This document shows positions 35,473 to 46,291 of a stretch of 64,000 nucleotides of DNA, piece by piece. The number at the start of each line of letters is the position of its first letter. The first letter of the stretch is position 1. Source of the DNA: Stenotrophomonas sp. 610A2. Lineage in GTDB: Bacteria > Pseudomonadota > Gammaproteobacteria > Xanthomonadales > Xanthomonadaceae. A model generated the notes under the pieces. The model was not told where the DNA came from. It did no database searches and saw only the letters and a program-made list of their open reading frames with translations. The stretch lies in contig NZ_CP130832.1 of the NCBI RefSeq assembly GCF_030549615.1, positions 1,736,001 to 1,800,000 of the forward strand, written 5' to 3'. The translations under genes were made by a program, and so were the position numbers.

Positions 35473-35658
35473 CGCTGTCCGGCGTAAATTCGGACGTAAA
35501 ATTCCACTGTTCTATTAGCTGCAGCCCATAGAAGCTGTGCTTGGCTATCGTCCCAATTCTTATTGATCAGCTCGCCGCCGGCCGCCCCGCGCCCCGCGCG
35601 GCCGATCGTGTAGTGGACCCCGATAGGAATACACTCGCACTTGCGAACAGGGGGGCGC

Positions 35659-36705
35659 ATGCTTAGATACAATCCGAGCCTGGACGGAATCAGGGCTATC
35701 GCGATCCTTGCGGTAGTTGCGTTTCATGCGACAACGCCACTTGCACGCGGCGGGTTCGTTGGCGTAGATGTCTTCTTCGTGCTTTCCGGATTCCTTATCA
35801 CGTCGATCCTTCGAGGTGAGATTGAACAGCACGGTAGCATTCGGGTCGCCCGCTTCTATGGGCATCGATTCCTAAGGCTATACCCTTCGCTGGCTCTGGT
35901 CCTGGTCGCATTTTTGGCGGCGGCCCCCTCGCTCTGGCCTGATGAACCCGCGGGTCAGTCTGTCCTCTTGGCCGCTATGTATTTGACGGACTACAGTTCC
36001 GCGTTCTGGCAAGCACCCGAAGTGCTGCGTCACACATGGTCACTTTCTGTTGAGGAGCACTTCTACCTGCTTTGGCCCTTAGCTCTGCCTATGGTCGTCA
36101 GGGCTCGCAATCCGGTAGCGACCCTTGCCATGATTTACGTTGCTGCAACGGTTTGGCGCGTCACAAATGCCATCTGGCTGGGATGGGATATGACCTACTA
36201 CCGTTTTGACACCAGGCTCAGCGGCCTGGTTCTCGGCGCGATGCTGAGCTATGTCGGCGAGCATGCGCTGGTGAGAAGATGGTCTTGGTTCGCCTGGCCA
36301 GCGATAGTCTTGGTTATCGTCGGTGGAGCCCATCGACAAGTTGCAGGTCTTGTGACCGCGATTCCTGTCGCTGAACTCGCAACAGCCTTGATGATCCTTA
36401 CCGCGCGCGCAACCCCTTCTCATCGGCTGCTGTCAGCCGCCCCAATGGTCTACATTGGGAAATTGTCCTATGGCATCTATCTCTGGCACTTTCCGATAGC
36501 AGTTTGGCTGCGTCCACAGATCGGATGGGAAGGTACGTTCGCCTGGAGCCTCGGGTTGTCGATCGGAGCCGCTGCAGTTACCTACCACTTCATCGACCTT
36601 CCCTTGCAGCGGTGGCGCCACAGGAACCGGACAGCGGCCTACCGGGCAAGTGAAGAACGGGGACAACCGGGTATTACGCCACATAGGGCATCACTCGATC
36701 CTTGA
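35659..36705 (+). CDS. Acyltransferase-3 family membrane protein, probable O-antigen-modifying prophage gene
   Basis: 348 residues from the ATG at 35659 (MLRYNPSLDGIRAIAILAV), the usual opening of this family. About ten membrane helices are present. Family motifs are ARFYGHRFLRLYPSL (about 63-77) and HTWSLSVEEHFYLLWP (about 124-139), with the catalytic-type histidine and glutamate. Such enzymes O-acetylate polysaccharides at the membrane, and phage copies change O-antigen (seroconversion). It is the only gene between the tRNA and the tail genes. It reads opposite to them, overlaps the last tail gene by 32 bp end to end, and has weaker GC bias at third positions than its neighbours. Confidence 0.9.
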   Translation: MLRYNPSLDGIRAIAILAVVAFHATTPLARGGFVGVDVFFVLSGFLITSILRGEIEQHGSIRVARFYGHRFLRLYPSLALVLVAFLAAAPSLWPDEPAGQSVLLAAMYLTDYSSAFWQAPEVLRHTWSLSVEEHFYLLWPLALPMVVRARNPVATLAMIYVAATVWRVTNAIWLGWDMTYYRFDTRLSGLVLGAMLSYVGEHALVRRWSWFAWPAIVLVIVGGAHRQVAGLVTAIPVAELATALMILTARATPSHRLLSAAPMVYIGKLSYGIYLWHFPIAVWLRPQIGWEGTFAWSLGLSIGAAAVTYHFIDLPLQRWRHRNRTAAYRASEERGQPGITPHRASLDP

Positions 36706-37582
36706 CAAGCGCGTTCTTCTCGCCAGACAGATCATCCAGCGCAACCACGTAATGTAGTTCAGCTGACGATGCGACATCGATGGTGAAAGTCCCATCGACC
36801 GCACTGCTGGTCGCAGATCCAGCATAAGCACCCGTCGCACGCACATAGGCCCTTACGATTCGGGCCAGCGGAGCATCGGCTTCGTCCTTTACGGATCCAA
36901 TAATCTGTGCCGGTGGAGCAAGGGCCCAGTCGATCACCGCGTCCAAAAGTGCTAGACCGTTCGCCGAGTACCCTATGCGCCCGTATAGCCAACCAATGAA
37001 GGCAATTTTAGCCCCAAAGGAACCCCCACTGCGGTCGATCGATCCACGCTCGGCCATAAGCATGGTGATCTTGTTATCGGTCGACGACACCACCGCAATC
37101 GCGCTACCTACATACGGATCGCCAGGAGCCACGGTATCTACATTGTCGGTCGCGGTCACAACGGAATAGTCAGCCGGCGGCGTGACGGAGACGGCTGACC
37201 AAACTGCATGGGGAGATGACGCCCGGACAGTCGTCGGAGAACTGGATCCCGATCCAACGTTTGTAGCCTTGTCGGCCAACTTGAGGTCTGCCAACCAACC
37301 CGTGGTCACGGTACCGCCAGTTGTGGGAACGAAGAGTCCCACCAATACAGGGATGCCACTGCTGTTCAAGTAGGCAGCGATATACATCTTCATCGTTGCA
37401 TAGCTCGCATCGTCCGTTAAAGCGCGAGGCATCACAATCAGATTGAAAGAAAGCAAGTTGCTTGCCGTAACCTCGCTCATGTTGAACGACGTTACTGTGT
37501 GCCCCATTCCCTCAATCGCAGCCTTCGTGTTGGTCGCGGCGACGTTAGTCTTATCTTTCGTGACCAGTGCGATGTTGGCCAT
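36674..37582 (-). CDS. Distal tail-module protein, unknown function, with carboxypeptidase-regulatory-like C-terminus
   Basis: 302 residues from MANIALVTKDKTNV at 37582; the in-frame extension upstream overlaps the tail-tip gene and looks random. The N-terminal half begins with an alternating beta-alpha pattern (IALVTKDK ... AIEGMGHTVTSFN ... FNLIVMPRAL), resembling a Rossmann- or flavodoxin-like fold. Residues about 220-302 (IIGSVKDEADAPLARIVRAYVR ... GTFTIDV) resemble a carboxypeptidase-regulatory-like beta domain, common on surface-exposed phage proteins. As the last gene of the tail operon it is a candidate receptor-binding or fibre component. Codon usage is less GC-biased than in upstream tail genes. 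Confidence 0.65.
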   Translation of the reverse strand: MANIALVTKDKTNVAATNTKAAIEGMGHTVTSFNMSEVTASNLLSFNLIVMPRALTDDASYATMKMYIAAYLNSSGIPVLVGLFVPTTGGTVTTGWLADLKLADKATNVGSGSSSPTTVRASSPHAVWSAVSVTPPADYSVVTATDNVDTVAPGDPYVGSAIAVVSSTDNKITMLMAERGSIDRSGGSFGAKIAFIGWLYGRIGYSANGLALLDAVIDWALAPPAQIIGSVKDEADAPLARIVRAYVRATGAYAGSATSSAVDGTFTIDVASSAELHYVVALDDLSGEKNALVKDRVMPYVA

Positions 37583-37595
37583 TTCTTGGTTCCTC

Positions 37596-40427
37596 TCAAG
37601 GTTCGAAAATAAACTCGACTGCATCGCCAGCCGGCGGCATGTACGGTTCGTCGGTAAAAATGAACTGGATGGGCGTCACAGGAATCTCGATCTCCCATTG
37701 ATGGGAGGTGAAGCTACCCAGGCCGTCGCGCACGGAGAACACCTTCGCAATGACCGGGGACGCGTTGATATCCTCGATTTGGATCGTGGTGGTGTCGCCG
37801 GTAACGCCTGCGGATTCGGCCACCAGCAGCGACATGTCGCTATTCCACAGCTGCACCGTATAGGTCGTCCCCGGCTCAGGGCCGATGCTCGCCGCCGTGA
37901 CGTCCACCAGCGTATCGGCCTGCAGCACGCGATCGCGGTGCTTCCACGTGAATACCAAGTCGGCCCCGACGCTGGTCGGGTAGCTTTCGCCGTTCAACTT
38001 GACGCCGGCCGGCGGGTAGGGACGTCCTGCGCGGCCCTGCATCTCCAAGGTCAACGCCGGCGCCTCCGACAGTGCGAGCATCTCGCTGCTGGTGCGCGTG
38101 AGCGCCTTGGCTGACACCGTCTCGCCGTCCGAGTACTCACGGGTGTCCGCGCCGGACCACGCATCGTAGAACCAGATCCGCTGCCCAGCCTCGTGCGGGA
38201 TGGCCACCGTGTCCGCGCAGCCGCGCCCCAGGGTGAGCGTGCCAGCCACCGGGTCGATCGCGTCGACGCGTACAATCTCCGCGCCCAACAGCGCAGCAGT
38301 GCCGACCTCCACCTGGCCGAGATCGCTTTCGCCGGCCAGGGTGAACGCCGTGTCAGTCCGTGACGCCGCCTCGACCAACAATGCGGTCGGGCACCAGTCG
38401 AATGTTCCGACTTCGCCGTAGTCGGACGCCGGCGGCGCCGTCCAGAGCGCGTAGTTGATACCCGTCCCCGGCCGCCTGGCGACGGTCGCGAGGAACCCGG
38501 CGTCGACGGCGAGCACAGCCAGGTCGCCTGGCGAGAGTGTGCCGGCGAGTTCGACGTACGGAGCTTCGAACGCAAGCTGCTGAGCAGGCACCTGCGGCTT
38601 CGTCGATGGCGTCGTGTCAACCCCAGGCTCGCCCACGATATAGGTGGTGTCCGGCATCGAGAACACGTCCTGCACTGCCACCAGCTTGATCGAGCCGGAC
38701 CGTAGGATTCCAGTGTCGATGTCCCCGACCATGCACACCATGTCTGCGATCCCCCGCAACGGAAGCTGCAGGCGCAGGAACTGCCCGAGCCGAAGCGCGT
38801 GGGGCTTCCGGTTGGTGGTCAGCGTGAAGCGCTTTAAGGGTGTCGCCTTGCTTCGGAGGTCTCGGGCTGCAACGCGGAGTGCCAGGCTCTCGATCGGGAT
38901 CTCGGGGTACTCGATCGTCTCGGAGCGGACCCCGCCGACCGCCGCGATCGCGCCGAGCGAATGCTGCGGAGACGTCGCGCGATCCTCCTTCCGCTCCGGA
39001 TCGAACCATGCGACCACCACCTGGTTGACCGCATCGTCGAGGGTGGATGGATCCTCCTCGAATTCGATGATGTCGTCGTCCGTCAGGATCAGCAGAGCGT
39101 CGAGGTCGTGAACGCCGCGGATCAGGTCGAGGTACCACTGCCCGTCAACGCGGCTGCGCGTGCAGCTGGCGCCGATGACGTTGCAGATCCGCTGCCGGAA
39201 GTCCTCGAGCGATTCGCTGTCAGAGTCATACTTGGTGCAGATGCCGAAGCCTTCGGCGTACAGCTTTTGGGCCGCCGCGCGGAAGCTGTCGTCGTTGATG
39301 GCTGCAACCGGTTCGCCCTGCATGTCCGCCGACGTGAGGCAGTCGTAGATCACGTGCGCGGGGTTCATGCCGCGCATGCCGCCAAGCATCGCTTGGACAA
39401 CCACGGCGGTGATCGCGCCAGGGTCGTCACCCTCGATCACAGGAACACCGTCGTTCGGCGTGTTGTCGACGTACTCGGTATACGTGGTGTCCGACAGGTC
39501 GATGTTCATCCCGTAGCAAGCCAGCGCGGTGACACCGTTGACGACCGCTCCGGCCTCGGCGGCGATCTGCGCGGCCGTCATGCCGGAGCCCGCATCTGCG
39601 GGTTCCCCATCGGTGACGAAAAATGCCACTCGCTTCGCGTCGCCTGGAGCGCCTGCATAGAAGTCAGGCATATCCATCACGCCGGCGGTGAAGTATGTCG
39701 AGTACGACGATGACCGGGCGCTCACCCACGCCTTCAGGTCGTCGATGTCGCTGCTGTCAACATCGCGTCGGAGAATCGAGGCGCGACCACTTGGGTAGGT
39801 GCCGAAGCCGACGATCATGATGTCGGTCGTCACGCCACGCTCGGCAATCAGGGAGCCGATGAAGTCCAGCGACGAGTTGATCGCCGACTTCATGTTGGTC
39901 AGCCGGCTCTGCCCGTTCGGCGTGATCGTGTCCATCGAGCCAGACAGATCCAGCGCGAAGTAGACGGCTACGGACGACGGCGCTACCAGGCCGATCTCGG
40001 CAACCTCCGGGTACCAGCACTCGTCGTTGTCCCACCCCTTGAGTATCCGCCGCAGCTTGAAGGAGGCCGGCTTCGGATACGGGTTGAAGGCACCGTAGCG
40101 ACCGCCCTGGAACACGCCGCCGGCGCGCCCACGGTAGGCGCTCTGCTCGGGGCCCAACTGAGCGGCCAAGTAGCTGCTCGGCGACTGGCTCTGCTCACCG
40201 AAGCGCACGTCAAACGTTCCGGTGATTCCGCCTTCCGACGTCTCGCCACCCCACAGGTTGGCGGCGTTGATGTAGATCTGGCCACTGCTGGTGAGCTCGC
40301 CGCGCCAGGCCGTGCGATCGCCGCCGCGGAACTCCAGGAACGCATCGATCGGGCCCTTGCACCACCCGAAATGCATGATCAGTTTGTACCAGTACCCGAC
40401 CGTGGTTTTCTTGCTGCTACCGCCCAT
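37596..40427 (-). CDS. Tail-tip/host-specificity protein (gpJ-like hub) with inserted von Willebrand A domain
   Basis: 943 residues. The N-terminal 145 and the region from about residue 354 onward (MNPAHVIYDCLTSADMQGEPVAAINDDSF..., IEYPEIPIESLALRVAARDL) match phage central tail-tip proteins that bind the host. Between them, about residues 152-348, sits a von Willebrand A domain with a complete metal-ion site: DLSGS (Asp160, Ser162, Ser164), Thr247 in TYFTAGV and Asp273 in FFVTDGEP. The C-terminal 400 residues are beta-rich and probably form the tip. It acts outside the cell in the virion. Its start overlaps the 74-residue gene by 11 bp. Confidence 0.88.
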   Translation of the reverse strand: MGGSSKKTTVGYWYKLIMHFGWCKGPIDAFLEFRGGDRTAWRGELTSSGQIYINAANLWGGETSEGGITGTFDVRFGEQSQSPSSYLAAQLGPEQSAYRGRAGGVFQGGRYGAFNPYPKPASFKLRRILKGWDNDECWYPEVAEIGLVAPSSVAVYFALDLSGSMDTITPNGQSRLTNMKSAINSSLDFIGSLIAERGVTTDIMIVGFGTYPSGRASILRRDVDSSDIDDLKAWVSARSSSYSTYFTAGVMDMPDFYAGAPGDAKRVAFFVTDGEPADAGSGMTAAQIAAEAGAVVNGVTALACYGMNIDLSDTTYTEYVDNTPNDGVPVIEGDDPGAITAVVVQAMLGGMRGMNPAHVIYDCLTSADMQGEPVAAINDDSFRAAAQKLYAEGFGICTKYDSDSESLEDFRQRICNVIGASCTRSRVDGQWYLDLIRGVHDLDALLILTDDDIIEFEEDPSTLDDAVNQVVVAWFDPERKEDRATSPQHSLGAIAAVGGVRSETIEYPEIPIESLALRVAARDLRSKATPLKRFTLTTNRKPHALRLGQFLRLQLPLRGIADMVCMVGDIDTGILRSGSIKLVAVQDVFSMPDTTYIVGEPGVDTTPSTKPQVPAQQLAFEAPYVELAGTLSPGDLAVLAVDAGFLATVARRPGTGINYALWTAPPASDYGEVGTFDWCPTALLVEAASRTDTAFTLAGESDLGQVEVGTAALLGAEIVRVDAIDPVAGTLTLGRGCADTVAIPHEAGQRIWFYDAWSGADTREYSDGETVSAKALTRTSSEMLALSEAPALTLEMQGRAGRPYPPAGVKLNGESYPTSVGADLVFTWKHRDRVLQADTLVDVTAASIGPEPGTTYTVQLWNSDMSLLVAESAGVTGDTTTIQIEDINASPVIAKVFSVRDGLGSFTSHQWEIEIPVTPIQFIFTDEPYMPPAGDAVEFIFEP

Positions 40428-40641
40428 GCTCTGCCTCTTCTTGTTGCCTGGCGTGCTTCACGAGCGCCAGCGCCAATCCGTCGCCTGTCGCCTCGAGGCG
40501 CTCGGAGGCGATGCCATTTCTTACGAAGTCCGACCAGTCCAACTGGTGGCGGGCGAACCATGCGCGGCTGCCGGACGCGCACAGTCCGGGCCGGGGCCCG
40601 AAGCCGGTGATCGTCCTCAGGTGCTCGATGCGCACGATCAT
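40417..40641 (-). CDS. Small conserved tail-module protein, unknown function
   Basis: 74 residues from MIVRIEHLRTITGFGPRPGLC; the ATG at 40641 overlaps the previous stop as ATGA. Residues 15-45 (FGPRPGLCASGSRAWFARHQLDWSDFVRNG) are compact and basic, and the C-terminus is helical (GDGLALALVKHARQQEEAEHG). No family is recognised. The tight coupling to both neighbours argues for a real gene used in tail-tip assembly. Confidence 0.7.
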   Translation of the reverse strand: MIVRIEHLRTITGFGPRPGLCASGSRAWFARHQLDWSDFVRNGIASERLEATGDGLALALVKHARQQEEAEHGR

Positions 40642-40982
40642 TTCTTGCCGCTCTTCTTGCGAATCGCATCGGTGCCGGCGGGCTTCCAGCCGAGCACGAT
40701 GGAGTCGTCGACCCACACCGTTCCGTAGATGCGGATCATGGATTTGCCGTCCTTGACGGTTGGCGCGTTGCCCTTTTGCGCCTCCTGGTTCTGCGGCTTC
40801 GGCCGCATCGCGTACGAGACCAGCAGCGAAATGATTAGAACCACGATCGCCCAAATGATCTGCACGTAAGCTGCGGAGACTGGTCGACCACCCACGTACT
40901 TCGTGGCATACACGCGGGCGCGGGCCTCGTAGGCGATCGCGATCAGGAGTGCGCGCAGGCGCTTGGCTTGGAGTGAGCGCAT
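40638..40982 (-). CDS. Small membrane-segment tail-module protein
   Basis: 114 residues. A long hydrophobic helix (about 40-60, VQIIWAIVVLIISLLVSYAM) lies between a basic N-terminal helix and a polar C-terminal part (IRIYGTVWVDDSIVLGWKPAG). In position it corresponds to the lambda gpK/gpI slot, but no peptidase motif is visible. Lambda gpI-like assembly proteins also carry such a hydrophobic helix, so a gpI-like role is a reasonable inference. The start shares bases with the upstream stop (TGATG). Confidence 0.7.
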   Translation of the reverse strand: MRSLQAKRLRALLIAIAYEARARVYATKYVGGRPVSAAYVQIIWAIVVLIISLLVSYAMRPKPQNQEAQKGNAPTVKDGKSMIRIYGTVWVDDSIVLGWKPAGTDAIRKKSGKK

Positions 40983-41818
40983 CACCACACCGGATTTCCG
41001 TCGAAGATGTTCTTGACCGGTAGGTACATCGACCCACCGTAGTTGTCGCCGTTCTCGAAGTAGCCGGTGCAGTCGGCCCAGTTGTGTGCGCACCCTGGGT
41101 ACGCGACGACCTCCAGCGCGACGGAGAGATCTGCCGCACCGTAGTTGACGACGATCGCGGCGCCCGTGTGCTCCATGATCGTGCGGAACTCCTTCAGACC
41201 GTCGGGCCGCGTCCATTCGATGTAGCCACCGGCGAGGCGCCCCACGGGTAGCGTCGCAAACTCCGGTGCCGTCAGCATCAGCCCCGTGACGCCGGTAAGC
41301 ACCGCTGGCAGAGCGTGCAATTCCTTATCGACGTTGCACATGCCCAAGCCCTGGCTGTACAGCGCCAACGGACAGCCTCGCTGCCACTTGAGTTGCAGGC
41401 CGCTGCGCCGCCCCGACGTACGCGATGGCTCGCAGGTGAGCTTCAGCGTGGTGTCCGTGTAGGAAGGCGCGACGACGCGGCCGATCCATTCCGTGGCCAC
41501 GTCCGCATCACCATAGTGCTGGGCCATGCAGGTGACGATGACCGGATCGCTTGGCGGGTACGGCCGCCACCACGAGGCAATGGCGACGTCGTCCTCGCCG
41601 ACCTTGAGCGGAAGCGTGATCGTCACGTTGCTGCGCTTGGCGTCGACGCCCTCTCGGATCGGACCGCGGGCGATGCTGATCGGGTTGTATTCCTCGCCAC
41701 CGATGAGAATCGTGCGATCCGCGCTGGTATACCGCTCCACAAGCGTGCCGCGCTCGAAGCGGAAATGCGCCACCGGCTGGCCGAACCAGCGGCTGATCTC
41801 GCGCAGGCTAAACGTCAT
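40982..41818 (-). CDS. Phage BR0599/DUF2163-type tail protein
   Basis: 278 residues. The N-terminal part (DRTILIGGEEYNPISIARGPIREG ... RSNVTITLPL) and the cysteine-containing segment WQRGCPLALYSQGLGMCNV match tail-tip proteins of the BR0599/DUF2163 group, which build the distal tail of siphophages and gene-transfer agents. Cysteines also occur in YPGCAHNWADCTGYF near the C-terminus. It overlaps the upstream gene by 11 bp. Confidence 0.8.
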   Translation of the reverse strand: MTFSLREISRWFGQPVAHFRFERGTLVERYTSADRTILIGGEEYNPISIARGPIREGVDAKRSNVTITLPLKVGEDDVAIASWWRPYPPSDPVIVTCMAQHYGDADVATEWIGRVVAPSYTDTTLKLTCEPSRTSGRRSGLQLKWQRGCPLALYSQGLGMCNVDKELHALPAVLTGVTGLMLTAPEFATLPVGRLAGGYIEWTRPDGLKEFRTIMEHTGAAIVVNYGAADLSVALEVVAYPGCAHNWADCTGYFENGDNYGGSMYLPVKNIFDGNPVW

Positions 41819-43007
41819 CGGTCACCGCCGTGAAGCTGAGGTCACAAACGCCGATGCCGTCGACATCGGTCTGGTGTTCGATCTCGACCTCGTCGCTCGC
41901 CTGGGTGCACAGGCTCATGAACGACACCAGCCGGATCCGCGAAGGCGCGATCGTGGCGCCCAAGGCCGAGGCGAGCGTCAGGCTCTCGAACTCGCCTGCC
42001 TCGCCCGAGCCGGTGATCCTGCGATAGAAGACCGTGCCGTCCTTGAGCTCGATGCGGATGTCCCGGCGGCCCGCCTGCTGTCGGCCGAACAACGTGTAGC
42101 CGCACCACTCAACGACAAGGACCGTGCTGTCCGCCGCGATGGTGGCGGCCACCTTGATGTCGGCCGCCCAGCTTGGCACCCACAGCGGCACCGCACGGCC
42201 GGCCAAGCCGTACAGGAGCGAGCGCACGGCGCCGTGCTCGGCGCGGCCGTCCATAAGCCAGCGATGCGACGCACTCCGGAAGGCGCGCCCGGCGAGGTCG
42301 AATACCGAGGGGAGGCCGCTCCCCTCGTCCACCACCTCGATCTGTCGCGAATAGCTGGCCGTCGGGTCGGAGCCTTCGTCGGGCCGGTGCTCGAGCACGG
42401 GGAACCCGAGGTAGGTCGATGCCGGCAACTCGGCCGGCCAGTCGCATACCTCCGCGATCTCGAAGCTGACGCTGCGCTTGCCCGCGACATCGTTCCAGGC
42501 GCTCTCCTGCGAGCCGTCCAGCACCCGCGCAGCCCGCAGCGGGTACAGGCGGGTGCCGGCGCCCCACGACGCGCCCAGTGGCTGCAGGAGCGCCAGGCTG
42601 TCGCCCAGCACCGCGTCGATGGTCACCACCTCGAAGGCGTTCACCGAGCGCCACAGCATCGCCTGGCCGCCTTCCCGGAACTCGAAGGCGGTGGTGCGGC
42701 AAGGAACGATCGTCGCCCCGACCGCGACCGGGCTCAGCAGGCGCTGGACGTCGTGCCAGATCGGAAGCGCCCACAGCTTGGTGCCGCGGTCGAACAAGAG
42801 GGCGTCCGCTACGCGGCGCGCCTGAGCCTCGGCCAGGACGTCGAAAGTGAACGTGCGGCGGGGGCTGAGCCGCAGCTGCCGGTGCTGGGTGTAGCCAGTG
42901 CGGTTGGACCGCAGGATGTCCGTGAGCCACGCCAGAGTCTCGCGGACGCCACTGCTCCAGTCGGGCGGGACGGGCCAAGGCACGGGACCGGCGGAGGTGT
43001 AGCTCAT
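41808..43007 (-). CDS. Tail protein following the tape measure, family not recognised
   Basis: 399 residues from the ATG at 43007, which overlaps the tape-measure stop as ATGA. The sequence is beta-rich with many Trp and Arg residues (MSYTSAGPVPWPVPPDWSSGV..., SPRRTFTFDVLAEAQARRVADALLF). No enzyme motif is visible. Its place between tape measure and BR0599 protein corresponds to a distal tail or minor tail protein (lambda gpM/gpL region). Confidence 0.75.
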   Translation of the reverse strand: MSYTSAGPVPWPVPPDWSSGVRETLAWLTDILRSNRTGYTQHRQLRLSPRRTFTFDVLAEAQARRVADALLFDRGTKLWALPIWHDVQRLLSPVAVGATIVPCRTTAFEFREGGQAMLWRSVNAFEVVTIDAVLGDSLALLQPLGASWGAGTRLYPLRAARVLDGSQESAWNDVAGKRSVSFEIAEVCDWPAELPASTYLGFPVLEHRPDEGSDPTASYSRQIEVVDEGSGLPSVFDLAGRAFRSASHRWLMDGRAEHGAVRSLLYGLAGRAVPLWVPSWAADIKVAATIAADSTVLVVEWCGYTLFGRQQAGRRDIRIELKDGTVFYRRITGSGEAGEFESLTLASALGATIAPSRIRLVSFMSLCTQASDEVEIEHQTDVDGIGVCDLSFTAVTDDV

Positions 43008-46000
43008 TCCTGCCACCCCGCCTGGATGCTGTTGCCGTTGGCCACGACCCCGTTGACCAGGGTGCGCTCGAATTCGCGGTTGTTCGCCAGCGCCTGCGCC
43101 AGCTGGTCGAGATCGAGGAAGTTCAGTACGCGCGTGTTGGCGTTGACGGTCGGGGCCAGTCCGCCGTTGGCGGCGCTCGGGTGCTGCTCCCACCGGGGGC
43201 CGGCCAGGCGGGCGTCAGGTTCCACGAAGCCGCCGTCGGCGTATCCGCGCCAGTCGTAGAGCGCGTCCATCCCGCGATTGTTGAAGTCCTCGAGGAACGC
43301 GCGGGCGCCCGGCTGGCGCACCACCTCGCGGCGGTTAACGAATTCCTCGGCGTGCACGATGCCGGCGGGTTGCCATTTCGAACCGGGGCCGGTCCAGCCG
43401 CCCTCCGCGAAGCCGCTGCCGCCGTCGTAGCTCGCCTGGGACAGCAACGAGGCGATCTGCGCACCCTGCGCCAGGGCGCCGGCGATGAAGCCGATGTTCT
43501 GAGGGAAGCCGGCCTTGCTCGCCTCGGCCACGTTCTGCGCCAGCGCGACGGCCGCCTGCGCGACCGCGAAGGCCTTGCTGATGGCGAACAGGGCGCGGTA
43601 GGTCTTGCTCTGTTCGCCGCCGTAAGCCTTGGAGATGTCCGCCAGCTGCCCGAAGGTCGCCGACGCGCCGGCCAGCATCGCCTGCTGGCGCGCCGACTCG
43701 ATCTGGCGCAGCGCGTCCTGGTGCTGCGCGGTGAGGGCCTGCTCCTGCGCGTTCCACTGCGCCTCAACGCCGATCTTCTGCGCACGGAACTGGCTGAGCA
43801 GCGCCAGCTGATCCTGGTACCACTTCTCCAGTTCGGCGCGAGCCTCGCCGATCTTGCCGAGCTCACCGAACGCCCCGCCGATCTCCGGTGCCAAGCCTTC
43901 GAATTTCGGTGCCTTGTCGAACGCGCCGCTGACGATCCGTCCCATCGACGCGTCGTAGGCCGCGGAATCGGCGATGCCGGCCTTCAGGGCCTTGTTGAGC
44001 GTCTCGACCTGCGCGATTGCTCCTTCCAGAGCGGCCTCGGCCGGCGTGCGCAGCGCGTCCTGCAGCTGCTCATAGGAGCGCTTTGTATCCTCGAGCTCCC
44101 GCTTCTGCTTGGTGGCCTCCTCGCGCTTGGCGCGCTCGCTGTCCAGCAGCTGCGCGTTGTCGACCAGTTGCTGCTTCACCGCCTCGCTGGCGTTCCGGTA
44201 CGCGCCTTCCTCGATCTCGTAGCGGATCCGCGCCGCCTCGCTGACCTTGGTTTCACCTTCGGACAGATCGCCCAGCAGCGCGATCTGCTTCTCCAGGTTC
44301 TCGACTTCGCGCAGGGCGGCGTCGTTGGGATCCGTGGCCTTGGGGCCGCGCGGCGTGCGGGACTTCTTCTCTTCGGTCTCGTCCTCGATGGCCTTCTTCA
44401 GGCGCTCGTATGAGCCGTCATACAGGCGTGAGTCGTTCGGATCGACGGCCGCGATGACGTTGTACTGCTCGATCAGCTTGTTGAGTCTCTGCTGCCGCTC
44501 GACCTTCTTGTCGATGCGCGCGATGTCGCGGTCGATCGACGCCGCGGCGCTGACCGCCTTGTCCTGCAGCTGCTGTTCTTCGGCCGCGGCCTTCGCCGTC
44601 GCATCCTGCAGGTCCTTGCGTTCCTGCCACTGCGCGATGTTCTTCTGTTCGTTCGCGATGCGCTCGCGCAGCGCCTGGTTGGCCTTGTCGGCCTGCGCCT
44701 GGGTGAGGATCCCGAGCCGGACGTTCTCGGCGAGTTCAGCACGCTGCTGGTTCGCCATCAGGATGCCACGCTGGCCCGCGGCGATGCGGGCCTCGGCATC
44801 CTCGCGGCCGATGTCCTTGATCATCTGCCAGGCGCTGCGCGCCGCGTCGCGCACGTCGTACCAGGCGCGCTCGAGCGTGCCGGCATTCGCCCGCATCTCG
44901 GACACGCGCGACGCGGTCACTTGAGCAAGGGCTTCGGTAGCGGCCTTCGTCGCGTCCTGAGCCCGACCCTGGTCCTCGAGCGACTTGACGTTCTCGTAGA
45001 CCTCCAGCGTCAGGAAGTGGTAGCGCTCGTTCAACTCGACCAGGCTCGCGGTCGGCGACTTGGCCAGCGCGATCACCTGGTTCGTGGTGTCCTCGATGCT
45101 CTTTCCAGTCAGCTGGGCAAGACCCACGGCCGCCTGCGTGGCGCTCTGCAGCGAGTCCGAGGTGAACTTGCCTGACGCGGTCAGCGCCTCGAGCGACGTC
45201 TGCGCCGCAGCGAAGTCGCCCGTGGACTCGCCCACCTGGTTGCGCATGTCTGCCAGCGCACCGGCCGTCGTGCCCGCGTAGTTGCCGGTGGCGATCAGCG
45301 CGTTATCGAACGCGCGCATCTGCAGGTAGTTCGTGACCAGCGCCGCGGTGAGCCCGCCCACGACCAGGGTGACGCCGCCGATCGCCAGGCCGGCGCCGGA
45401 GAACAGCCGCCCCGCCAGCCCAGCCTGGTTGCCCAGCTGCAGCAGCTGGTTGCCGGCCAGTTGCCACTGGCCGGTGACGCCGTAGCTGACCAGCTGGGAC
45501 AGGTTGCGCTGGACACCGAGCGACTCGGTGTTCAGGGTGCGCATCGCATTCGCCGACTGCGCCGCGCCGTCTCGGATTGCAGTGAGGCGCGTGCGCTCGG
45601 CGCCGATGGTCGCCATCGCGCGGTTGTACTGCTCGCGGGAAATGCGGCCGGCGTCGACCGCCGCCTTCAGCTGTGCCTCGTCGCGCGCGAGGCGCTGCAG
45701 CGAGGCGCCCGCCTTGTCGTAGCGCCCGACCGTGCCCTCGATCGCCTTGCCGCTCTTCTCGGTTTCCTTGTTGAGGCGGTCCTGCTCGGCGCCGAGCTTC
45801 TCCAGTGCCTCGTCGTATTCCTCCGCCGTGACCAGGCCCTTGCGCATCGCGACGTCGAGGCGCGCCTCGGTGTCGGCCAGGTCGTCGATGCTGGTGGCGC
45901 TGCGGCCGAGCCGCTCCTGGAGTTCCGAGATCAGCCCGATCTCGGCCGTGACCGCTTGCTGCGTGGCCCGGCTGGCGGCCACGTAGGCCTGCTGCGCCTG

Positions 46001-46291
46001 GGCCTGCTCGAGCGTAGCGGCGGCCGCACCGCTGCGGCCTGTTCCAGCGGCACTCTGGTCCGCCTCGATCTGCGCACGCGCCGCCTCGAGCTCAGCGAGC
46101 GACCGGCGCACCATGTCGCGGATGCGGTTGTCCGTGCCGGATCCGCTGCCGCTCTTGTTGATCTTGTCGGTCGCTTCGACAGCGGCGTCGCCAAGGCTGC
46201 GCAGGTCGCCCTCGGTACCGGTGACTTCGCGGCGTGCCGCCGCGAAGTCCGCCTTCATCCGCATATCGATTTCGAAGTCGCGATTGGCCAC
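43004..46291 (-). CDS. Tail tape-measure protein
   Basis: 1095 residues from a GTG at 46291, 2 bp past the G/GT fusion stop; an ATG nine codons later is the alternative. Long coiled-coil stretches (about 30-250 and 560-730) are rich in Ala, Glu, Arg and Gln. A hydrophobic region (about 285-325, LFSGAGLAIGGVTLVVGGLTAAL) and a C-terminal lambda gpH-like domain with FAEGGWTGPGSKW and GGFVEPDARL are present. It sets tail length and passes through the tube into the host. At 1095 residues a tail of roughly 150-170 nm would be expected by the usual scaling; that is an estimate. Confidence 0.93.
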   Translation of the reverse strand: MANRDFEIDMRMKADFAAARREVTGTEGDLRSLGDAAVEATDKINKSGSGSGTDNRIRDMVRRSLAELEAARAQIEADQSAAGTGRSGAAAATLEQAQAQQAYVAASRATQQAVTAEIGLISELQERLGRSATSIDDLADTEARLDVAMRKGLVTAEEYDEALEKLGAEQDRLNKETEKSGKAIEGTVGRYDKAGASLQRLARDEAQLKAAVDAGRISREQYNRAMATIGAERTRLTAIRDGAAQSANAMRTLNTESLGVQRNLSQLVSYGVTGQWQLAGNQLLQLGNQAGLAGRLFSGAGLAIGGVTLVVGGLTAALVTNYLQMRAFDNALIATGNYAGTTAGALADMRNQVGESTGDFAAAQTSLEALTASGKFTSDSLQSATQAAVGLAQLTGKSIEDTTNQVIALAKSPTASLVELNERYHFLTLEVYENVKSLEDQGRAQDATKAATEALAQVTASRVSEMRANAGTLERAWYDVRDAARSAWQMIKDIGREDAEARIAAGQRGILMANQQRAELAENVRLGILTQAQADKANQALRERIANEQKNIAQWQERKDLQDATAKAAAEEQQLQDKAVSAAASIDRDIARIDKKVERQQRLNKLIEQYNVIAAVDPNDSRLYDGSYERLKKAIEDETEEKKSRTPRGPKATDPNDAALREVENLEKQIALLGDLSEGETKVSEAARIRYEIEEGAYRNASEAVKQQLVDNAQLLDSERAKREEATKQKRELEDTKRSYEQLQDALRTPAEAALEGAIAQVETLNKALKAGIADSAAYDASMGRIVSGAFDKAPKFEGLAPEIGGAFGELGKIGEARAELEKWYQDQLALLSQFRAQKIGVEAQWNAQEQALTAQHQDALRQIESARQQAMLAGASATFGQLADISKAYGGEQSKTYRALFAISKAFAVAQAAVALAQNVAEASKAGFPQNIGFIAGALAQGAQIASLLSQASYDGGSGFAEGGWTGPGSKWQPAGIVHAEEFVNRREVVRQPGARAFLEDFNNRGMDALYDWRGYADGGFVEPDARLAGPRWEQHPSAANGGLAPTVNANTRVLNFLDLDQLAQALANNREFERTLVNGVVANGNSIQAGWQE

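Follow-up and report, generated by a model that had tools for sequence, protein, structure and literature searches.

What does a von Willebrand factor A (VWA) domain do when it sits inside the baseplate hub of a phage tail? The question arises from a prophage of Stenotrophomonas sp. 610A2, whose genome is a single 4.68-Mb contig; the window, that is, the whole stretch of 64,000 nucleotides analysed here, covers positions 1736001-1800000. The minus strand of the window encodes a terminase, a portal, a head protease/major head protein, a major tail protein and a chaperone, and the same module continues with a tape measure, a distal tail protein, an upper baseplate protein, a chaperone-like gene and the hub, which belongs to a siphophage-type prophage. 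The tail genes around the hub are as follows.

36674-37624, minus strand: 316-aa protein downstream of the hub (phrog_14189, unknown function, E 4.8e-5)
37596-40427, minus strand: baseplate hub, 943 aa, homologue of JBD30 gp53 and of the Chi minor tail protein (phrog_1101, 8rk3, 8vjh, PF13550)
40982-41818, minus strand: upper baseplate protein, 278 aa, without a VWA domain (phrog_778, E 8.4e-63; matches the C-terminal part of phrog_15205)
41808-42977, minus strand: distal tail protein without arm-wrapping N-terminal domains (phrog_1082, E 1.4e-135; homology to B3)
43004-46291, minus strand: tape measure protein (phrog_24, E 1.8e-94)

The hub matches phrog_1101 at E 5.5e-253 and PF13550 over residues 439-558, and among solved structures the hubs of JBD30 (8rk3, E 3.7e-125) and Chi (8vjh, E 2e-117) come nearest to it in sequence. 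Phage JBD30 (PMC11445458) shares with the window a homologous hub and the gene order tape measure, distal tail, upper baseplate, hub; gene order and the B3 and window seeds lead us to infer that the upper baseplate protein is the equivalent of JBD30 gp50. The 316-aa protein corresponds, by position only, to the JBD30 receptor-binding protein gene. The distal tail ORF was listed from 43193, with homology to B3 starting at its residue 73, and its start was probably set too early. A single 240-aa ORF is listed at 40417-41139 (minus strand), overlapping the upper baseplate gene; as phrog_1196 covers only its residues 115-238 and relatives have two small genes, it is probably over-long or two genes. 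On the opposite strand beside the tail genes (35641-36705, plus strand) lies a gene that resembles the O-antigen acetylase genes of phages (phrog_6705, E 3.5e-61); genes of this kind can change the surface sugar of the lysogen, which might bear on the receptor.

Alignment with the JBD30 hub breaks after residue 144 and resumes at 349, with 5 JBD30 residues between, and alignment with the Chi hub breaks after 143 and resumes at 351, with 15 residues between. Residues of about 145-350 are thus an insertion relative to both. The match to JBD30 extends over residues 1-144 and 349-914, in agreement with an initial annotation that described an in-frame insertion with intact flanks. That annotation also placed the insert between hub parts that otherwise adjoin; JBD30 and Chi indeed have nearly nothing there, but the domain is not peculiar to this phage and occupies a slot shared with its relatives. 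The domain and its metal-site elements, the latter identical in 50/50 VWA slots and in 33/33 tail VWA domains, map as follows.

39378-39983, minus strand: VWA domain in an exchangeable slot, residues 149-350 (slot limits from relatives; matches to Pfam VWA and, by profile, to solved VWA domains)
39936-39950, minus strand: first MIDAS motif, DLSGS, with Asp160, Ser162 and Ser164
39696-39698, minus strand: second MIDAS motif, Thr244
39609-39611, minus strand: third MIDAS motif, Asp273

Residues forming a MIDAS in the pattern DxSxS, Thr, Asp are established for the VWA family. Taken singly, the hub segment gives a modest Pfam match: PF00092 aligns to residues 155-298 at E 5.3e-4 and 20.7 bits, under the cut-off of 23.8, while the same place scores 24.7 bits, just above the cut-off, in a whole-genome search. 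That sub-threshold score is what could suggest that the match arose by chance, or that the segment belongs to the ordinary hub fold and is no VWA domain. We give this reading almost no weight: relatives clear the cut-off (highest 37.1 bits among those scanned, P0023), homologues without the segment exist, the MIDAS residues are invariant, and a family profile matches solved VWA domains. The profile was built from 33 domains of hub, upper baseplate and distal tail proteins, 25-62% identical to the window domain, and it matched 52 distinct sequences of solved chains at E <= 0.01 (best 1.1e-18), including the pilus adhesin SpaC, collagen VI, TRAP and integrin I domains. The initial assignment of a complete VWA domain to residues of about 152-348 (window 39384-39974) is therefore borne out by the Pfam match and the family profile.

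Six positions only are invariant in the 50 VWA slots among the matches listed: Asp160, Ser162, Ser164, Thr244, Asp273 and Gly274. Across the 33 tail VWA domains the five MIDAS ligands are invariant, together with Met165 and one Asn. DLSGS at 160-164 and Asp273 had been named correctly as metal-site elements; the threonine had been given as Thr247, which is absent from the conserved positions listed, and Thr244 takes its place. The slot segment is a VWA domain with a full set of MIDAS residues, and Asp160, Ser162, Ser164, Thr244 and Asp273 are predicted to bind a divalent metal. The identity of the domain and the conservation of its metal site can be read from sequence, as can the exchange of the slot and, within our sample, the exclusion of arms described below.

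How widely the domain is shared depends on how relatives are sought. A search with the whole protein, with 120 matches listed of 594, found a slot of the VWA cluster in 50 of those listed and other inserts in 70. Such a list favours VWA domains by construction, so the search was repeated with hub residues 351-850 only. Among the 120 matches listed of 719 in this hub ranking, 17 carried a VWA domain; relatives often lack it. Slots were measured in 114 and ranged from 85 to 345 aa, six matches being left out of the slot lengths because their N-terminal part was not recognisable. Over both lists, 159 measured slots fell into 20 clusters by BLAST (E 1e-4), which is not a count of folds, as some clusters may be distant relatives of one another. 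Laminin_G matched the slots of P0161 (over the Pfam cut-off) and P0013 (under it), and BNR/Sortilin matched those of P0163 and P0048 below the cut-off; beyond these matches, the terms lectin-like, sandwich-like and propeller-like for slot types are our reading of the sequences.

A quick tree of the 114 hubs (from the 120 listed) calls for a minimum of 55 changes of slot cluster, and for a minimum of 12 if VWA slots are set against all others. A close comparison is offered by locus L035, the nearest hub in the locus tree, with 73% identity across the core. Its DNA follows that of the window for 9.3 kb, at 78.8% identity, as far as window position 40007, and the match starts again at 39372, at 70.5%; the break brackets the slot (39378-39983), in which L035 holds a different insert of 247 aa. 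Judged from these sequences, the best reading is that recombination exchanges the slot and leaves the hub around it the same.

The domain also diverges faster than the protein that carries it. Of 228 pairs of VWA hubs with hub identity above 60%, 219 had a lower identity in the VWA domain than in the hub (means 48% vs 67%); in P0055 and P0117, for instance, hubs 96% identical carry VWA domains only 43% identical. Such divergence fits adaptation or the replacement of one VWA domain by another, and could also come about through relaxed constraint. The hub query matched in 6 of 61 related genomes, its own included, and the matches with both hub parts outside its own genome had nearly empty slots of 7-19 aa. 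In one genome of the same genus, only the VWA part of the query found a match, and a weak one (G024:C7:178631-178936, locus L009; query residues 176-279, E 6.9e-4). Two further relatives, Arenimonas caeni (L016) and Pseudoxanthomonas jiangsuensis (L017), have hubs in which the slot, 160 and 145 aa long respectively, is not of the VWA type.

The origin of the domain was sought in standalone proteins and in the host. Among 700 candidates of 0.55-1.75 times the 202-aa query length, no standalone VWA relative was found at E <= 0.001. Four other places in the prophage's own genome match Pfam VWA, of which one matches the tail-VWA profile, at E 9.9e-4; we saw no sign there of a recent capture from a local host source. 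The pilus protein PilY1 has a VWA domain, and mimicry of PilY1 by the tail domain is conceivable.

JBD30 attaches to the type IV pilus through three side arms made of gp47/gp48; its distal tail protein wraps these arms with domain I (residues 2-74), which is followed by domain II (75-174), as described in PMC11445458. Unlike the window, JBD30 has an empty slot, of 5 residues, and carries these pilus-binding arms; the Chi hub, although homologous to that of the window, has 15 slot residues and no VWA domain. Arm genes of the JBD30 type (gp47/gp48) were found neither in the window locus nor elsewhere in its own genome. Between the tape measure and distal tail genes of the window there were 0 arm matches, the gap to the listed ORF being -189 bases.

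This pairing of a filled slot with the lack of arms recurs among relatives. Loci were drawn from IMG/VR (80 of 594 confirmed were taken from the first scan), genomes and named phages, and a hub was found in 199 of 203 sources, the window included. The count covers 132 of them, each with a measurable slot and a distal tail gene that begins over 1500 bases in from the edge of the locus: 77 are filled and armless, 52 empty and armed, 3 empty and armless, and 0 filled and armed. Removing hubs at least 90% alike leaves 89 loci, divided into 67, 19, 3 and 0 in the same order. In loci with a match to the tape measure profile, the distance from this gene to the distal tail gene ranged from -372 to +13 bases if the slot was filled and was at least 1069 if arms were present. 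In the 77 filled loci, the ORF that directly precedes the distal tail gene is 678-1396 aa long, unless cut by the locus end; since a long tape-measure-like ORF adjoins the distal tail gene, the absence of arms does not depend on the arm profiles alone. In whole records, an arm homologue occurred in none of 10 VWA phages and the own genome, five armed phages were without a tail VWA domain, and 0 of 16 had both; as the records were picked for their states, this check excludes only arms or VWA domains elsewhere in a record.

Three loci are both empty and armless: RcHartney and L184, which have enlarged distal tail proteins, and L082, which is without arms, a slot domain or an enlarged distal tail protein. 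In RcHartney (L004, 5446-7197) the distal tail protein itself contains a VWA domain, flanked by parts that match B3 residues 189-304 and 365-450, and in L184 (4774-8979) the distal tail protein reaches 1401 aa. Outside the counts, the Chi-type phage ER24 has a slot of 16 residues and a tape measure gene adjoining the distal tail gene, and RcIroh has a slot of 22 residues and no VWA domain.

The distal tail protein follows the same division. In BLASTP, the alignment with B3 begins at B3 residue 178 for MW2, 187 for QH3 and 177 for the window, after 20, 22 and 72 residues of their own, and for PaMx28 it pairs residue 1 with B3 residue 174; in the armed phages AXL1, AXL3 and PaMx74 it begins at B3 residue 13-44. 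Taking the numbering of B3 (568 aa) and JBD30 (~567 aa) as equivalent, the armless proteins would be without domains I-II. The exceptions are R6L (filled slot, 529 aa) and ER24 (562 aa), in which the distal tail protein has N-terminal sequence without a BLAST match to B3. The upper baseplate protein varies as well, being at least 330 aa long in 30 of 77 filled loci but in none of the 51 armed loci and none of the 3 others. In some relatives a VWA domain stands at its N terminus; of the 31 hub-VWA loci, which include near copies, 11 have a second VWA domain in this protein, so that, with the distal tail protein, two further baseplate proteins of relatives carry a VWA domain. In some loci (L050-L052, L054-L056, L059, L083 and others), all with a filled slot, the upper baseplate protein is 346-425 aa long but gave no VWA match, and its length makes other added domains probable.

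The exclusion of arms by a filled slot might merely reflect two old baseplate lineages, with the slot domain an accessory binding module that tracks lineage. In keeping with this, 11 of the 19 non-redundant armed loci fall in one clade, and the use of the B3 hub as a query over-sampled armed loci from B3-like phages, enriching the search for them. The sign test on the locus tree, which was not significant (median p 0.125), leaves room for it too, p 0.05 being out of reach with fewer than six informative pairs. In the other half of that tree, however, armed hubs alternate with filled ones; the tree requires at least 7 changes of slot state and 5 of arm state, and when independent pairs were drawn at random 200 times, all informative pairs were opposite in direction (mean 4.1 opposite, 0 the same way, 1.9 without co-variation). 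A switch within a genus also tells against lineage: PaMx28 and PaMx74 are placed in one genus in their records and have opposite states: PaMx74 has a slot of 2 residues, two genes for arms, a distal tail protein of 561 aa and an upper baseplate protein of 270 aa, whereas PaMx28 is armless, with a 386-aa distal tail protein and VWA domains in both the hub slot and the upper baseplate protein. We regard the two-lineage account as possible, if rather unlikely.

The reading that we consider probable is that the VWA domain is a metal-dependent adhesin in an exchangeable receptor-contact slot of the hub. Because filled slots go with armless tails and the slot is exchanged, the domain is most likely a receptor-contact domain. 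As we picture it, the slot of the trimeric baseplate hub takes unrelated-looking inserts, exchanged by recombination; in the loci sampled, a filled slot goes with tails that have neither JBD30-type arms nor the distal tail part that matches the arm-wrapping domains; and the slot would be the receptor-contact site of these armless baseplates. A divalent metal held by the five MIDAS residues would then complete the contact with a molecule of the host surface, probably a protein. Exposure of the domain on the virion, its binding of metal and receptor, and the nature of that receptor are predictions. The initial annotation had offered both adhesion and triggering at the tail tip. Domain exchange, arm exclusion and fast divergence around an invariant metal site all speak indirectly for adhesion, which is the better supported of the two. 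The presence of SpaC, integrin I domains and TRAP among the solved VWA matches, and the adsorption-promoting baseplate inserts of skunaviruses, point the same way. The product of the gene following the hub may nevertheless be the real receptor-binding protein, which would count against an adhesin in the slot. Also against it stand the small number of changes in the tree-based test, the three loci and ER24 that have neither arms nor a slot domain, the enlarged distal tail protein of R6L beside its filled slot, and relaxed constraint as a possible cause of the fast divergence.

Two other roles deserve weighing against that of an adhesin for a separate receptor. VWA domains often bind partner proteins, and the domain could be an internal baseplate part whose metal site binds a tail protein for assembly, stability or tip opening. 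A partner is at hand in the 11 of 31 hub-VWA loci that also have a VWA domain in the upper baseplate protein, where VWA-VWA or VWA-hub contact is possible, the hub and the upper baseplate protein adjoining in JBD30 (PMC11445458). The upper baseplate protein is, however, without a VWA domain in the remaining 20, and hubs function with unrelated-looking inserts or none, which implies that a fixed partner is unnecessary; an internal part thus seems unlikely to us. The slot domain could instead bind the same pilus receptor as the arms by another route. The armed relatives AXL1 and AXL3 (slots of 3 and 14 residues) and DLP4 (arm homologue present) use type IV pili, which published work on them reports to be required for infection, and some VWA phages share host genera with armed relatives. 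Yet the many kinds of insert would all need to bind pilin, and the accessible literature on the VWA phages Mallos/Elanor and R6L names no receptor; pilus binding by the slot is, in our estimate, improbable.

Several elements of this picture are already known: binding domains inserted in baseplates, the mosaicism of tail proteins, and VWA labels in GenBank and phrog. GenBank gives the hub of the Bordetella phage MW2 the label 'von Willebrand factor type A', and upper baseplate proteins with a VWA domain are gathered in phrog_15205 under the name 'tail assembly protein'. The hubs of MW2, PaMx28, QH3, Mallos, Elanor, R6L and Bhz59 carry a VWA domain in the same slot as the window; they differ in that the VWA identity is 25-50% and several have a second VWA domain in the upper baseplate protein. 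Domain mosaicism is known for phage tail proteins in general (PMC10684548), and in skunaviruses the binding domains inserted in a baseplate protein, the evoDits, promote adsorption (PMC10688798). The window resembles evoDits, as that report presents them, in having exchangeable domains of many insert groups within a baseplate protein. It differs in that the lactococcal evoDits are distal tail proteins with carbohydrate-binding modules, where ours is a VWA domain in the hub of a Gram-negative phage. As in an evoDit, the insert is internal, absent from homologues and flanked by parts that align with the short form, but it lies in the hub. Archaeal tailed viruses, Hardycor1 (PMC7911831) and those of the CobT type (PMC8651126), have VWA domains with a MIDAS, as the window does; these are reported beside AAA ATPases or as cobaltochelatase subunits, not as tail parts. 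In the accessible open-licence literature we found no description of a VWA domain in a phage tail or baseplate hub, nor of an alternation between arms and slot.

More broadly, and with confidence somewhat short of even, we propose that Gram-negative siphophages of this kind share one baseplate chassis with two interchangeable modes of attachment, the VWA mode being a metal-dependent, integrin-like, protein-binding adhesin. In the first mode, arms anchored on distal tail domains I-II would grip retractile pili. In the second, arms and anchor would be gone, and a slot domain of the hub, VWA, lectin-, sandwich- or propeller-like, would contact another receptor, often with a second domain in the upper baseplate protein. 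Switching between modes would then be switching between receptor classes. If this is true, it would name the receptor-contact site for a large group of siphophages with armless tails, and the state of the slot (filled or empty) together with the presence or absence of arms would be a mark in the sequence that predicts the mode of attachment. It would also place an integrin-type metal adhesion site at work in a virion.
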